Below are positions 3,106 through 9,298 of a stretch of 20,554 nucleotides of DNA, piece by piece. The notes beneath the pieces are model-generated. The model searched no databases, was not told the DNA's origin, and was given only the letters and a program-made list of their open reading frames with translations. The stretch is from positions 1-20,554 of IMG/VR virus record IMGVR_UViG_3300007363_000135; one strand, given 5' to 3'. Every line of letters starts with the position of its first letter. Positions within the stretch are counted from its first letter, which is position 1. Source of the DNA: a virus. The translations under genes were made by a program, and so were the position numbers.

Positions 3106-4545
3106 ATGGCCGTCTCAATAAGCAGAACAGCGGACCCGGCAGGCGTAAGCGCATCCAGCAACGTCGTCACATATAGCACCCAAAGCATCGGAACTGCGGC
3201 TGAGGACCGCGTTATTTTCCTGCTTGTCGGCTCGGAACTCGCCAGCGCCAGCCCGAACAGCGCGACGATAGACTACGGAACCGGCGCGGTGGCGATGAGC
3301 GCCGGAACGCAGGGCAACTTTGGCGCGGTCTACTCAAGAATATTCTACGCCAAGGCCCCAACCGGAACGACTGCTGATTTTGCAGTTACATTTGGTGCCA
3401 ACCCGAGCAACACCCAAAACCACGTTTCGGTCTATCGTGTTGTCGGGGCGCGGTTCTCTCTAACCTCGGGCGGCAACGGTTCCACCGATATGGACGCGAC
3501 CGCGCCGCTCACTACCGGCTCGATCACGATCCCATCGAACGGAGGATTTATTGCGACCGCTGCCGGCGCAAACAATAATAGCACCAAAACTTGGGCGAAC
3601 GCGACCGAAGATTTGGACGCCGACGTTACGGGTTTTCGGCATACAACGGCGACTAGGACAACAAGCGGCACGGTAACGGTAACGTGTACCGGTACCGTCA
3701 ATGCCGAAGATGGCGCTATGTCATGGGTCATTCTGACCCCCGGCACATTCGTCAACCCAAACGCCGGGAGCTACAGCCTCACCGGCACCGACGCAACGCC
3801 AAAGCTCGGGAAGGTCATAACGGCAGAAGCTGGAAGCTACACGCTCACCGGCACCGCAGCGACCCAGAAAAAGGGACAGGTCATCGCGGCTGGGGCGGGG
3901 AGCTATTTCCTCGCTGGCACTGATGCAACGCCGAAGCAGGCTAGGGTCGTCACGGCAAGCGGCGGTTCTTATGCGCTGACCGGCACCGACGCGAGCCCAA
4001 AACGCGGGTTTGTGGTAGCTGCTGGGGCCGGTTCCTACGTCCTGACCGGCACGGATGCCGACCTGATCTATACGTCGGCCGGCGGGTATACGATTGTTGC
4101 CGGGGGTGGCGTCTATACCCTAAGCGGCACCAATGCCGGGATTGTGCATGGATGGCGCGTCGCGGGCTCGTCCGGTTCCTATTTGTTGACCGGGACCGAT
4201 GCGGCATTAACCGCCGCCACGGTTACCGCCCAAACACAGACAGCCGGCGGCGGATGGGAGTGGTTGAACAACCTAAACCCGCCTATCAGGCGGCCCTCAG
4301 ATGAAGCCGATGAGACGGAACAACCAAGGCGCAAGAGAAAGCGCAAAAGCCGGAAACAAAAACCCGCCGCCCAGATTATCCTTGAGACTGACGCCGGCGA
4401 TGTTGAAACAGGAATTGTGCCAATCCGCCCCGCCAATGACGTTCTGGCGCGGCTTGGTCGGCAGATGAAATTCGCAGAGGCGGCGCGGGCCGAAAGGTTC
4501 CGCCGCATGGCAATCGCAGATGATGAATGGATGATGACGGCGTGA
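3106..4545 (+). CDS. Virion beta-repeat protein with seven 22-residue repeats
   Basis: 479 residues in three parts. Residues 1-220 form a Thr/Ser/Gly-rich beta domain ([20 protein letters not shown] near residue 23) that resembles the product of 18695-19387. Residues 221-377 hold seven tandem units of the type [20 protein letters not shown]: four of 22 residues, one of 26, one of 22 and a partial last copy. Residues 380-479 are different: Pro-rich, then very basic ([13 protein letters not shown], about 406-418), then a helical tail rich in Arg and Ala. GSYxLTGT repeats are known in phage structural proteins, where each unit probably makes a beta hairpin. A fibre or capsid-surface role is inferred. 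It sits between the portal and scaffold genes rather than in the tail-fibre block. Confidence 0.8.
3670..3698 (+). repeat. Long near-perfect inverted repeat inside a coding region
   Basis: Bases 3670-3681 pair with 3687-3698 around the five-base loop ACGTG. Eleven of twelve positions pair; the exception is A3676 opposite G3692. The segment encodes part of a Gly-Thr-Val beta strand in the 3106-4545 gene, so repeated GGT/ACC/GTA codons may explain it. The stem is nevertheless long for a chance structure and could slow ribosomes or affect mRNA decay. Confidence 0.5.
3766..4236 (+). repeat. Tandem coding repeats, period 66 bases
   Basis: Seven in-frame units start at 3766, 3832, 3898, 3964, 4030, 4108 and 4174. 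The period is 66 bases except for the fifth unit, which is 78 bases long. Each begins with Gly-[SV]-Tyr-x-Leu-[TAS]-Gly-Thr-[DAN]-Ala. Protein similarity between copies is high while the DNA has diverged, so this looks like an old, selected repeat rather than a recent expansion. Confidence 0.85.
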
Positions 4546-4848: not shown

Positions 4849-5733
4849 ATGGAAACTACCGACCAGACCGCTCCGACACCGGAAACCGTTGCTGAAACCA
4901 ACGCCCAGACGCCGGAGGTCGGAAACACCGAAGAACCGAACCAGGCCGAAACGCCCGAAGAAGGCGACGAGCAGGAAGGCCAGGAAGAGTTCATCGACAT
5001 TGAGCAGAACGGGAAAACCTACAAGGTCCCCAAGTCGCTCGAAAGCCTTCTTATGTTCCAGAAGGACTACACGCAGAAAACGCAAACCCTAGCAGAGCAG
5101 CGCCGTGATCTTGAAGCCACGCGCCAAGCGACGGAATGGGAAGCGGGAACAAAGGCCGCGCTGTTCAGGGAGGAAGCCCAGGCTTTTGCCCTGGATCAAA
5201 GGCTGGAACAGTTCGCTAACGTGAACTGGCCGGCCCTGGCCCAGCAGGACATGCAGCGTTATGCGTCGTTGCAGGCCGAATATACGCAGTTAAGGGATGC
5301 CCGCTCCAAGATCGGAGAAGCCATCGACGGGCGTCGAGCCGAATTGATTGAGAACCGCGAGCGCCAGACCGCCACCGCGCTTCACAAGGCAATGGAGCAC
5401 CTAAGCAAACCCAAGCCCGATATGGGCTGGGATGGCAAGTTTGACATGGCCAAGCGAGAAAGTCTGACCAAGTTTGGTCTGCAACTCGGGTTCACGGACG
5501 AGGAACTTTCCAACACGTCCCATCCCTTGATGGTGCAGACCCTGAACCTCGCTAGGATTGGCTATGAGAGCTTGAAGGCAAAATCCGCAAGCCTCAAACA
5601 GCAGCAGGAGGCGAAGCCCATTACCGTAGTTGCCAGCGGCAAGACACGGACAGGGCCGGCAAACCCCGACAAGCTGCCCATGAACGAGTGGATCAAATGG
5701 CGCGAAAAGCAAGTCAGCAATTCGCGCAAATGA
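4849..5733 (+). CDS. Scaffolding-like head assembly protein
   Basis: 294 residues directly upstream of the coat gene, the usual place of a podovirus scaffold; P22 gp8 has 303 residues. The first 50 residues are strongly acidic and rich in Glu, Thr, Pro and Gln (EEGDEQEGQEEF), probably disordered. Then come FIDIEQNGKTYKVPKSLESL (about residues 48-67), a pattern common in phage scaffold proteins, and a long helical, coiled-coil-prone region with many Gln, Glu, Arg and Ala (about 68-190). The basic C-terminus (WREKQVSNSRK) fits scaffold proteins that bind coat through a positively charged helix-turn-helix. Scaffolds guide procapsid assembly and then leave. Identification rests on position, composition and length. 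Confidence 0.82.
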   Translation: METTDQTAPTPETVAETNAQTPEVGNTEEPNQAETPEEGDEQEGQEEFIDIEQNGKTYKVPKSLESLLMFQKDYTQKTQTLAEQRRDLEATRQATEWEAGTKAALFREEAQAFALDQRLEQFANVNWPALAQQDMQRYASLQAEYTQLRDARSKIGEAIDGRRAELIENRERQTATALHKAMEHLSKPKPDMGWDGKFDMAKRESLTKFGLQLGFTDEELSNTSHPLMVQTLNLARIGYESLKAKSASLKQQQEAKPITVVASGKTRTGPANPDKLPMNEWIKWREKQVSNSRK

Positions 5734-5795: not shown

Positions 5796-6992
5796 ATGGC
5801 TAACACCATTCTGACGCCGACTGCGGTGACGCGTGAAGCTCTCCGCATTCTGCACAATAAGGCGATGTTCATCGGCACGATCAACCGCCAGTATGACGAT
5901 TCTTTCGCCAAATCCGGCGCGAAGATCGGCAACTCGCTGAAGGTCAGGCTCCCGAACCAGTATACCGTCCGCACGGGCGCGACCCTGAATGTTCAGGACA
6001 CGACCGAATCCTCGACGACCCTGACCGTCAGCACCCAGAAGGGCGTTGACTTCAAGTTTACGTCCGAGGAATTGACCATGGACTTGCAGGACTTCTCGGA
6101 TCGCATCCTTGAGCCTGCCATGTCCGTTCTCGCCGCCAACATCGAGGCCGACGCCTATTCGATGTACAAGGACGTATACAACTTCGTTGACAGCGATGGT
6201 GCTGCCCTCGATCTGTATGACATTCTCGACGGCCGCCGTTACCTCAACGACAACTTGACGCCGATTGACGACAACCGGACGGCGATGCTGTCCACCGTCC
6301 ATTCGGCCAAGCTCGTCAATGACGTGAAGGCCCTGTTCCACGATAGCGCCGCCATCAAGCAGCAGTATCGTGAGGGCAAGATCGGCCGTACTGCCGGGTT
6401 CGATTTCTACGAAAACCCGATCCTTGGCAAGCATACGACCGGCACGGCCGCTTCCGGCGATACCGGGTACAACGTCAACGGGGCGAGCCAGTCCGGCGCG
6501 GCCCTGACTGTTGACACGGGCTCGACCACGTTCCTCATCGGCGACGTTATCACCATCGCCGGCTGCAACGCGGTTCACCCGGAAACCAAGGCGGACCTGG
6601 GGTATCTCCAGCGTTTCGTCATCACGGCGAACAGCGGAGCGAGCGCAACCACGCTCAACATCTCGCCGGCCATCGTCACGTCCGGGGCGACCCAGAACGT
6701 GTCGGCGGCTCCGACGAACGGCGGCGCGATTTCCAAGCTGGGCGGCGGCAACGCGGCCACGCTCGACAACTCGATGCTGTATCACAAGAACGCCTTCACG
6801 TTTGCGACGGCTGACCTTGTGATGCCGCAGGGTGTCGATTTCGCCGCCCGCGAGGTCATGGACGGCATCTCGATCCGCGTGGTTCGGGCCTACGACATCA
6901 ACAACGATGCGTTCCCGTGCCGTCTCGACGTTCTCTATGGCTACAAGACGCTTCGGCCCGAAATGGCCGTTCGCGTCCACGCCGACGGCTAA
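5796..6992 (+). CDS. Major capsid protein, P22 coat (gp5)-like
   Basis: 398 residues; P22 gp5 has 430. It forms the icosahedral shell. The N-terminus MANTILTPTAVTREALRILHN, the region IGNSLKVRLPNQYTVRTGATLNVQDTTE (about residues 49-76) and the late segment GDVITIAGCNAVHPETKADLG (about 249-269), followed by a beta-rich Thr/Ser stretch, are hallmarks of P22-type coat proteins with the HK97 fold. The helical EELTMDLQDFSDRILEPAMSVLAANIEAD (about 90-118) fits the spine helix. It follows the scaffold gene after a 62-base spacer with its own hairpin and good ribosome site, and is followed by a strong hairpin, so its mRNA may be specially stabilised. Confidence 0.95.
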   Translation: MANTILTPTAVTREALRILHNKAMFIGTINRQYDDSFAKSGAKIGNSLKVRLPNQYTVRTGATLNVQDTTESSTTLTVSTQKGVDFKFTSEELTMDLQDFSDRILEPAMSVLAANIEADAYSMYKDVYNFVDSDGAALDLYDILDGRRYLNDNLTPIDDNRTAMLSTVHSAKLVNDVKALFHDSAAIKQQYREGKIGRTAGFDFYENPILGKHTTGTAASGDTGYNVNGASQSGAALTVDTGSTTFLIGDVITIAGCNAVHPETKADLGYLQRFVITANSGASATTLNISPAIVTSGATQNVSAAPTNGGAISKLGGGNAATLDNSMLYHKNAFTFATADLVMPQGVDFAAREVMDGISIRVVRAYDINNDAFPCRLDVLYGYKTLRPEMAVRVHADG

Positions 6993-7056: not shown

Positions 7057-7317
7057 ATGGCAGTTGGCCAGTACCTCGGCGACGGAAACACCGACGGCTC
7101 GTCCTTCGGCTCCGCCACGACCGAGAAGATTTCGTTCTACGGCGTCACGCCTGTTGTTCAGCCGTCCGTGACCGCCATCGGCACCACGACCATTTCCCAG
7201 GTTGCGACCTCGGGCAAGTGGGCGTTTGCGTCCTCGACCGCCGCGCAGGCTTTCGTGGCCAGCGTCCGGTCCATCCAGGACAAGCTGGAAACCCTGGGCT
7301 TGATCGCCCAGTCGTAA
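7057..7317 (+). CDS. Small conserved virion-associated protein downstream of the coat
   Basis: 86 residues with a strong AAGGAG ribosome site at 7044-7049. It shows a pattern I associate with a widespread small phage protein found right after coat genes: a short Gly/Asp-rich start (DGNTDGSSFGSATTEK), the motif ISFYGVTPVVQPSVTA (about residues 26-41), then a C-terminal helix (AQAFVASVRSIQDKLETLGLI). It may be a head fibre or decoration protein, but the exact role is not established from sequence. There is no signal peptide or membrane segment. Its TAA overlaps the start of the next gene as TAATG. Confidence 0.8.
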   Translation: MAVGQYLGDGNTDGSSFGSATTEKISFYGVTPVVQPSVTAIGTTTISQVATSGKWAFASSTAAQAFVASVRSIQDKLETLGLIAQS

Positions 7318-8639
7318 TGCCGACAACGCACCTGATAAGCACGGGGCGGGCTCATGGTCCGCTCCGTGTCCTCATCGCCCTGCCGGTCTATTCCGGCGCA
7401 CTTGGGGCGCAAACAATGAAATCCCTATTTCCTGCCATGCAACGGCTTGATGACGCCGGCATTGGCTGGGAGGTTGCCATCGAGGAGGGCAATTGCCACG
7501 TCGATGACGCGCGAAACAGCCTTGTGAGGCGGCTTTTGCTGGGAGAATGTACTGATCTTGTGTTCATTGATGCCGATGTCGGGTTCGATGCGTCGGCCTT
7601 GGTGGAACTTGTCAATCTTGACCGCGACATTGTGGCCGGCGTCTATCCAAAAAAGAGCTTTTCCGAGGGCTTCCCTGTCATGGGGCTGCCCGGCGAGCGG
7701 TGGAGCGACGCCGAGGGGCTTGTCGAGGTTCAGGGAGCCCCAACCGGGTTCATGAAGATCAAGCGGCGGGTTCTGGAAAGCCTCCGCGACAGGGAAAAGG
7801 CCCGCGCTTTCATCGGGGCGGGCGGGAACATGGGCGATGAGCCCTATCATCCTATTTTCGAGCGCACAATTGCCAATGGCCGCAGATGGTCCGGCGATTA
7901 TGCGTTCTGCATCAAGGCCCGCAATGCCGGGTTCAAGGTTTGGGTCAACCCGGAATGGCGCTTCACCCATGAGGGGAACCACGTCTGGGAGGGAACGCTA
8001 GGCGATTTCTGGCGCAAGGAAGCCAGGATCGAAAGCCCGAAACTGATGGCGGCCATTCGGCGCCTGCGGGGCGGCGATGCGTCGTTTGAGGCGTTTGTTG
8101 CCCTGGCTCAAGCATGGGCGAACCCGTCTGCGGCTCTTCCCGACATGCTTCAGGCCGTTTGGGCGGCTTCCGTGGCCGCCAATGGCTGGGCAATTGAGGC
8201 TGGTTCCGGTCTGACAACAATCGTCGCAGGAATTGCGGCGGAAAGGACCGGCAATCTCCGCATTATCGCCCTCGAAAGCGACATGCGCTGGCATGACCGG
8301 CTTACCGGCCTGCTGAAAGTGGCGGAAATCGGCACGGTTGAACTTCTATATGCCCCTCTCAAGCGGGCCGATGGGTTTGTCTGGTACAATGCGGATGCGG
8401 CGTTCCCCGGCAAGTTCGCGCTTGCCATCTGCGACGGCCCGAACCGTGACTATGGCCGGGCCGGGCTTTGGAACGTCCTAGGCGACAGCATTCGCCACGC
8501 GACGTGGATCGTTGACGACGTTCAGGACAAGACACAACTCGATATGGTCAATGATTTTGCCGACGCCTACGGGCGCAAGATCAAGGTTCTCGGCGACGCC
8601 GGGAACAAGCAATTCGCCATCTGCATGGGTGACCAATGA
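7317..8639 (+). CDS. Glycosyltransferase fused to a methyltransferase-like domain
   Basis: 440 residues from the ATG at 7317, which shares one base with the previous stop. An upstream in-frame start would overlap the 7057-7317 gene by about 100 bases and is not favoured. Residues 15-260 look like a GT-A glycosyltransferase: RVLIALPVYSG at the start, LVFIDADVGF with the DxD-type metal site Asp85-Ala-Asp87, and GDYAFCIKARNAGFKVWVNPEWRFTHEG (193-220). Residues 275-440 look like a class I Rossmann methyltransferase: EAGSGLT (294-300) as the glycine-rich loop, IIALESD with acidic Glu320, and ALAICDGPNRDYG (368-380). It could glycosylate, and then methylate, a virion protein or host surface sugar. 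The glycosyltransferase call is firm; the methyltransferase call is moderate and its activity unproven. It overlaps the next gene as ATGA. Confidence 0.85.
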   Translation: MPTTHLISTGRAHGPLRVLIALPVYSGALGAQTMKSLFPAMQRLDDAGIGWEVAIEEGNCHVDDARNSLVRRLLLGECTDLVFIDADVGFDASALVELVNLDRDIVAGVYPKKSFSEGFPVMGLPGERWSDAEGLVEVQGAPTGFMKIKRRVLESLRDREKARAFIGAGGNMGDEPYHPIFERTIANGRRWSGDYAFCIKARNAGFKVWVNPEWRFTHEGNHVWEGTLGDFWRKEARIESPKLMAAIRRLRGGDASFEAFVALAQAWANPSAALPDMLQAVWAASVAANGWAIEAGSGLTTIVAGIAAERTGNLRIIALESDMRWHDRLTGLLKVAEIGTVELLYAPLKRADGFVWYNADAAFPGKFALAICDGPNRDYGRAGLWNVLGDSIRHATWIVDDVQDKTQLDMVNDFADAYGRKIKVLGDAGNKQFAICMGDQ

Positions 8640-9298
8640 CGACATATGCGACAATGCGGACGCGGATCGCCGACGAACTCGCCAACGACGGCGACATTAC
8701 CTCGGCGCAGATCAACTACGCCATTCTTGACACAATCAAGCAGTACGAGCGGACGCCGTGGTGGTGGAACGAGAAAACCGCCACGATGTCGACCGTCAAC
8801 GCCCAGGAATACTATTCATCGTCCGACCTGTCCGACATTCCCGACATCGTGCGGATCGTGTCGGCGCTTGTGACCGAGAACAGCCTTAAGCGGCCGTTGA
8901 TTCCGTATGAGTTCAGCCAGATTGACGACGTGCAGGACGGGTCGATGACCGGGTGCCCGGAAGCCTACGCCCTGTTCAAGGAAAACATCCGCCTGTATCC
9001 GATCCCGGATGCCGTATACACTGTGACGCTGGCGTATATCTATCGGTTGACGGCGCTTTCCGCCGACGGCGACAGCAACGCATGGACAACGGACGCCGAG
9101 GAACTGATCCGGCAAGGGGCAAAGCGCCGGATTGCGCTTAACTATCTCCACGCCGATGACCTCGCCGGCCGGTGCGCTGTCATGGAGCGGGAGGCGTTTG
9201 CGGAATTGCAGGCCGAAAACCGCCGCCGCCGGCCCAACACAAGATTGAAAATCCCGGCGATGTTGTCGCGCGGCGGTTTCAACATCAACGCAGGATAG
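8636..9298 (+). CDS. Head-tail adaptor, P22 gp4-like
   Basis: 220 residues, starting inside the previous stop (ATGA). The N-terminus YATMRTRIADELANDGDITSAQINYAILDTIKQYE (residues 3-37) is helical and matches the opening of podovirus adaptor (gp4-type) proteins, as does the following WWWNEKTATMSTVNAQEYYSSSDL. The middle is beta-rich, and the C-terminal half is helical and basic (GAKRRIALNYLHADDLAGRCAVMEREAFAEL; RRRRPNTRLKIP). Adaptor proteins bind the bottom of the portal after packaging and connect it to the tail hub. The order coat, adaptor, gp10-like protein supports the call. Confidence 0.85.
   Translation: MTTYATMRTRIADELANDGDITSAQINYAILDTIKQYERTPWWWNEKTATMSTVNAQEYYSSSDLSDIPDIVRIVSALVTENSLKRPLIPYEFSQIDDVQDGSMTGCPEAYALFKENIRLYPIPDAVYTVTLAYIYRLTALSADGDSNAWTTDAEELIRQGAKRRIALNYLHADDLAGRCAVMEREAFAELQAENRRRRPNTRLKIPAMLSRGGFNINAG

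Follow-up and report, generated by a model that had tools for sequence, protein, structure and literature searches.

A glycosyltransferase–methyltransferase fusion and a small threonine-rich partner in the head operon of P22-like phages: a candidate virion-glycosylation cassette

What would a phage modify with an enzyme that joins a predicted glycosyltransferase (GT) to a predicted methyltransferase, encoded in the middle of its head operon? The window, the whole 20,554-base stretch analysed here, is a virus record of its own and carries a P22-like structural module, as identified by Pfam and PHROG searches. From portal to adaptor, all on the plus strand, the gene order is P22-like portal (226–2385; PF16510, 3.5e-187), scaffolding protein (4849–5733; phrog_3927, 4.4e-31), P22-like coat protein (5796–6992; PF11651, 6.9e-43), an 86-aa ORF (7057–7317), the GT-A glycosyltransferase–O-methyltransferase fusion (P0001; 7317–8639, a single frame of 440 aa) and a head-tail adaptor of the SU10 type (8636–9298; PF24175, 4.8e-20), followed by another virion protein. 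Between portal and scaffold, positions 3106–4545 hold a 479-aa ORF whose translation shows, by eye, several tandem copies of an AGSYxLTGTDA-like repeat.

Gene junctions and predicted fold of the enzyme

The fusion overlaps both of its neighbours. Upstream, in the sequence TAATG, the stop codon of the 86-aa ORF (7315–7317) shares one nucleotide with the start of the enzyme (7317); downstream, in ATGA, the adaptor start (8636) overlaps the enzyme stop (8637–8639) by 4 nt. Since a Shine-Dalgarno-like AAAGGAG precedes the 86-aa ORF, and inspection of the sequence upstream of the enzyme start found no Shine-Dalgarno site, the enzyme is probably translated by re-initiation. An earlier note on this DNA had described one frame joining a DxD-bearing GT-A domain to a Rossmann domain, which is borne out over 440 aa with all motifs present, and had both edges of this frame overlapping structural genes. 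The latter holds downstream, for the adaptor, but not upstream, where the overlapping gene is the 86-aa ORF and not the coat; translation together with the coat was thus inexact, the coupled upstream gene being the 86-aa ORF.

The AlphaFold2 model of the 440-aa protein (mean pLDDT 94.1, pTM 0.84) has the folds that the note expected, GT-A in the N-terminal half and class I methyltransferase in the C-terminal half, so the note's refuting outcome of a C-terminal half folding otherwise did not arise. The first, A197-like, half (residues 14–235; 7356–8021) is assigned by VIA-align, by profile and by its match to phrog_1574 (3.5e-24). Its closest solved fold is STIV A197 (2c0n), to which residues 16–231 align with Z 17.7, rmsd 2.3 and 23% identity over 163 aligned residues (VIA-align), and the GT-half profile matches 2c0n at E 9.5e-8. 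Both are viral GT-A folds with a DxD motif, although A197 is a single domain without a methyltransferase and belongs to an archaeal host and an unrelated virion. The second half (residues 241–440; 8037–8636) is assigned as a class I O-methyltransferase by VIA-align and profile. Residues 231–440 match TrmR, COMT, MycF, SpnH and others with Z 15.8–17.5 (VIA-align), mostly O-methyltransferases and among them the sugar O-methyltransferases MycF and SpnH (Z 15.9), and the profile of this half matches 3cvo at 6.9e-8. A fold in common does not reveal which substrate is used. With the enzyme model, the 50 top Foldseek matches in the PDB contain methyltransferases and no glycosyltransferase, the GT match having come from VIA-align and profiles; a PntC-AEPT fusion among these 50 was rejected as spurious (TM 0.2–0.3, rmsd 17–20).

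Across 60 aligned fusions, 18 residues are invariant. Those in the first half include H61, D63, D64, R66 and N67 of an HVDDARN motif (residues 61–67; 7497–7517), D85 and D87 of the DxD motif D85-A-D87 (7569–7577), D194 (7896–7898) and H218. D194 lies at a helix start in the model and is a candidate catalytic base by comparison with Asp151 of A197, which sits in a helix; the alignment of the GT profile to 2c0n ends at 133, short of Asp151. Invariant residues of the second half include G296 and G298 of SAM motif I (E294-A-G-S-G298; 8196–8210), D373 and P375 of a D373-G-P375 motif (8433–8441) and R381, whereas E294, E320 (the acidic residue after strand 2), D400 and D401 are kept at 90% or more; the window protein also contains V399-D-D. 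Because the catalytic motifs are invariant, both halves are probably active.

By itself, the window protein has no match at E ≤ 1 in Pfam or among PDB sequences, finds only HpsN in NCBIfam (E 0.1) and matches in PHROG only PHROG 1574, listed as of unknown function, and a weak glycosyltransferase family (E 0.034); the domain assignment therefore rests on relatives, profiles and the model. At E ≤ 0.01, Methyltransf_24 (PF13578) is matched by 13 of the 60 fusions (best 5.3e-11), and GT2 and Anp1 by four each. The GT2 and Methyltransf_24 profiles that the note had pointed to match some relatives but not the window protein, which has no PF13578 match. The Anp1 matches, to eukaryotic Anp1/Mnn9 mannosyltransferases (PF03452), are weak (best 8.3e-4), do not reach the Pfam cut-off and do not include the window protein.

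A family of fusions behind the capsid gene

A scan of IMG/VR and genome contigs yielded 198 homologous ORFs in 171 loci, including 84 full-length fusions (61 at 90% non-redundancy). This recurrence, together with the 18 invariant residues, indicates that the fusion is not a chance product; judged by sequence, it is a widespread family of uncultivated phages. The GT half is matched by 59 of 50,697 phage records, but only the metagenomic MW202691 holds at least 80% of the fusion and only this record matches the methyltransferase half, so that no isolate in this set carries the fusion.

A fast tree of 105 GT sequences requires three changes of the fused state, against 35 by shuffling, which points to a single origin, or a few origins, of the main fusion. 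A GT without a methyltransferase is found at 86 loci, and 24 of these also have the coat and the small ORF. In L010 and L014, related GTs are fused to a Methyltransf_24 domain, different in kind from the methyltransferase of the window. This repeated pairing of related GTs with methyltransferases of other kinds suggests that sugar methylation itself may be what is wanted. The slot of the fusion is occupied in L174 (MW202573; 5999–7182) by a separate Methyltransf_11 gene and an A197-like GT gene, in reversed order. Four consecutive A197-like GT ORFs occur in L084 (991–4227), on a contig assigned to a Chlamydiae MAG, and two proteins from Planctomycete MAGs (L090:8810–10681 and L092:4398–6332; 624 and 645 aa) have a C-terminal A197-like GT behind a long N-terminal part.

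The genomic place of the fusion is strongly kept. A major capsid gene precedes it in all 52 of the 61 representatives with at least 1.5 kb of upstream sequence, being a P22-type coat in 50 and a Phage_capsid_3 coat, with P22-like portals, in two. The adaptor lies downstream in 49 of the 54 representatives with 1 kb of downstream sequence. In 56 of the 61 representatives, the ORF ahead of the enzyme belongs to the family of the 86-aa ORF (hereafter, the small ORF). Two of the five exceptions (L137 and L149) start within the gene, and L099 has, at the expected position, an ORF of 87 aa with a weak score against the small-ORF family; the other two, L117 and L126, are those with the fusion behind a Phage_capsid_3 coat, and have other ORFs in place of the small one.

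The small upstream protein and a second enzyme type

At 65–95 aa, most members of the small-protein family combine a PDG...G...(F/Y/H)G..P motif with a stretch rich in Thr and a helix at the C-terminus. Counting members regardless of kinship, Thr makes up 21% of the post-motif part in those linked to A197-like enzymes and 13.6% in those linked to MptE-like enzymes (see below), versus 9.9% in whole coats. PHROG searches with 55 members gave five matches to phrog_6994 (head fiber; best 6.7e-6), one to phrog_4366 and eight to phrog_29706 ('tail spike'), and none of 23 MptE-linked members matched the head fibre families. The model of the small protein is of middling confidence (pLDDT 75) and Foldseek found no fold match for it in the PDB. 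We dropped a capsid protein match of the family profile as chance (E 0.22) and ignored scattered, weak Pfam matches.

Is the small ORF tied to the enzyme, or only to the operon? We selected loci by coat alone, taking the 80 coats nearest to that of the window among the matches listed. Classification covered 86 loci, namely 79 of these 80 plus seven hand-picked named records; the locus left out, L148, has fusion, small ORF and adaptor. The 18 loci without an adaptor were excluded from the tests, leaving 68 rows. Among the 61 IMG/VR loci with coat and adaptor, again nearest matches listed, 17 have the small ORF, 16 a glycosyltransferase and 16 both, while 44 have neither. Adding the seven named phages gives 17 loci with both, one with the small ORF only, none with the enzyme only and 50 with neither. 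L232 has the small ORF and no GT was found there.

On a quick tree of these nearest listed coats, the traits change 11–12 times. In 10 independent pairs differing in the small ORF, the GT differs in the same direction in 9.5 on average and in the opposite direction in none (sign test, p 0.002–0.004), a better test than Fisher values, which treat related loci as independent. Of the 50 loci with neither, 17 have less than 150 nt between coat and adaptor and 33 have more room, four of these with a loose match to the motif, although the small-ORF profile was built on GT-linked members and may miss divergent small ORFs in other phages. For coat-chosen loci without the small ORF, Pfam searches with 10 of the gap proteins listed returned a polysaccharide deacetylase and HNH endonucleases and no third GT type, although a GT of another family may lie elsewhere. 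A search of 56 loci with A197-like GTs from outside the P22-like setting, in other types of phage, found no small ORF within 3 kb. The co-occurrence of two neighbours could partly reflect joint transfer.

A second kind of enzyme occupies the same slot. In L191 (6483–7247), L236 (6480–7289) and L214 (6474–7208; open end), the small ORF occurs without an A197-like enzyme and is followed by a PF01973-like (MptE/Maf-like) protein of about 250 aa, scoring 9.9e-7, 8.5e-8 and 0.0071, respectively, all below the Pfam cut-off. A wider search for such proteins, adding loci L259–L315, found 57 loci, 48 of them non-redundant. A P22-like coat is present in 35 of the 48, and in all 35 the small ORF lies between coat and enzyme, within head operons; of the other 13, L287 has the small ORF at the contig end and 12 have neither coat nor small ORF. 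L266 and L268 contain an A197-like GT in addition to the PF01973-like protein. As PF01973 is described in a passage of PMC11339370 as the central domain of Maf flagellin glycosyltransferases, the phage proteins are putative glycosyltransferases too, with no sequence relation to the enzyme of the window. That either of two unrelated enzyme families shares a slot with the same partner is difficult to account for if the partner has no bearing on the enzyme, though joint transfer of neighbours is a possible cause. A difference in motif by enzyme type holds only in part, with F-F/Y in 51 of 55 A197-linked members and H at that place in 17 of 36 MptE-linked ones.

Proposed role, alternatives and known systems

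We propose, with a probability of about 0.6, that the fusion is a cytosolic two-step enzyme of a virion-glycosylation cassette that makes a methylated sugar, with the 86-aa protein as the likeliest acceptor. The GT-A half would take a nucleotide sugar from the host and, with the help of a metal at the DxD motif, transfer the sugar to Ser or Thr of a freshly synthesised head protein; O-methylation of that sugar by the methyltransferase half, with SAM as donor, would follow. The Thr-rich small protein, which we read as a head-decoration (mini head-fibre) protein, would be made together with the enzyme, because the enzyme has no ribosome-binding site of its own and its start codon overlaps the small gene's stop codon, and the glycan would be displayed on the head. 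Its constancy as a partner and the 21% Thr of its post-motif part make the small protein our first choice. It cannot be the sole acceptor, because L117 and L126 carry the fusion without it; the 56 GT loci elsewhere that lack it also count against it, and the coat or another head protein is a possible acceptor. The note had named a virion protein as target, a view that comparative genomics strengthens through the capsid-adjacent place and the pairing with the small ORF. Its suggestion that the sugar may be methylated gains some support from the architecture, from Che8 gp108 (see below) and from methyltransferases of other families that neighbour related GTs or are fused to them.

The same exceptions, L117 and L126, with their other capsid family, would also fit an enzyme that glycosylates a different virion protein (coat, adaptor or tail protein), the small ORF being a decoration protein that travels in the same mobile block; moreover, the STIV and mycobacteriophage precedents, in the passages cited below, concern the coat itself. 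We consider this unlikely, though a serious contender, given that two unrelated enzyme families share the small protein (35/35 and 56/61) and that both genes are missing from 44 of the 61 coat-chosen loci, nearest matches listed. It is improbable that one half is catalytically dead and serves for binding or dimerisation only, leaving an unmethylated sugar or a methylated protein as the product: G296, G298, D373, P375 and R381 are invariant and E294, E320, D400 and D401 nearly so, even though the methyltransferase half has diverged, Pfam gives no match for the window protein and many related GTs do without a methyltransferase.

Phage GTs that alter host surface polysaccharide are known, and gtr-type glucosylation of the host O-antigen has a membrane-bound GT or flippase as its defining feature. 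The enzyme of the window lacks this feature, with no transmembrane segment and a maximum 19-residue Kyte-Doolittle mean of 1.5. Structural genes flank it on both sides, and its place after the capsid gene is kept in 52 of 52 representatives with sufficient upstream sequence. We thus hold it very improbable that the enzyme alters the host surface, for receptor change or superinfection exclusion, and is simply parked in the late operon, although a general statement in PMC12619734 assigns such a role to phage GTs.

Returning to virion glycosylation, passages of PMC4187194 and PMC10551542 report that A197 is essential and that the coat protein of its virus is glycosylated. In phages, virion glycosylation is established in mycobacteriophages, according to parts of PMC12363180 and PMC11600133, the former describing Che8 gp110 as essential to glycosylation of the capsid. 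Encoded in one cluster with it (gp108–gp110 cassette), Che8 gp108 has a GT (PF00535, 3.5e-8, residues 31–132) followed by a methyltransferase (PF13578, 3.7e-11, residues 243–348) in one chain, as in our fusion; thus, both virion glycosylation and a GT–methyltransferase fusion are already known. The architecture looks convergent, because the GT half of gp108 shows no sequence relation to ours (no hmmsearch match; hhalign probability 0.3%), while the methyltransferase halves reach 59% in hhalign. Unlike the fusion, gp108–gp110 lies near the right end of the genome and outside any head operon. In Cluster O (Corndog type) mycobacteriophages, compared here by their description in part of PMC11600133, GTs and an O-methyltransferase modify capsid and tail tube but are separate genes. 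A phage-encoded GT with a methyltransferase, as in these cassettes, is present here too, as read from the genes.

Full-text literature searches, judged from their listings, recognised no paper on the fusion family in P22-like phages and no description of an enzyme-exchanging small-protein cassette; what is new here is the small Thr-rich ORF between coat and enzyme in such a cassette. Whereas virion glycosylation has been shown in a few mycobacteriophages, in the passages cited above, the fusion family suggests that it may be widespread among uncultivated P22-like phages. The family further points to a function for PHROG 1574 and names a very small candidate acceptor, one suited to expression in E. 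coli alongside its enzyme, and the two unrelated enzymes with one partner offer a natural experiment on what sets acceptor choice.

More tentatively, at a little under even odds, the locus may be an interchangeable head-decoration module of P22-like phages, in which gain or loss affects a dedicated glycan-carrier mini-protein and an acquired enzyme jointly and leaves the coat in place. The enzyme would be of the A197-like type, with or without a fused methyltransferase, or of the MptE/Maf-like type. L263 (3390–3998) has two tandem members of the small-protein family ahead of an MptE-like gene. In L014 (3167–4795), a 543-aa post-coat protein has a beginning that resembles the small ORF and an end that resembles its C-terminal helix, both with weak scores, around a middle of several repeats of the domain of another post-coat protein, and is perhaps a long version of the same fibre.
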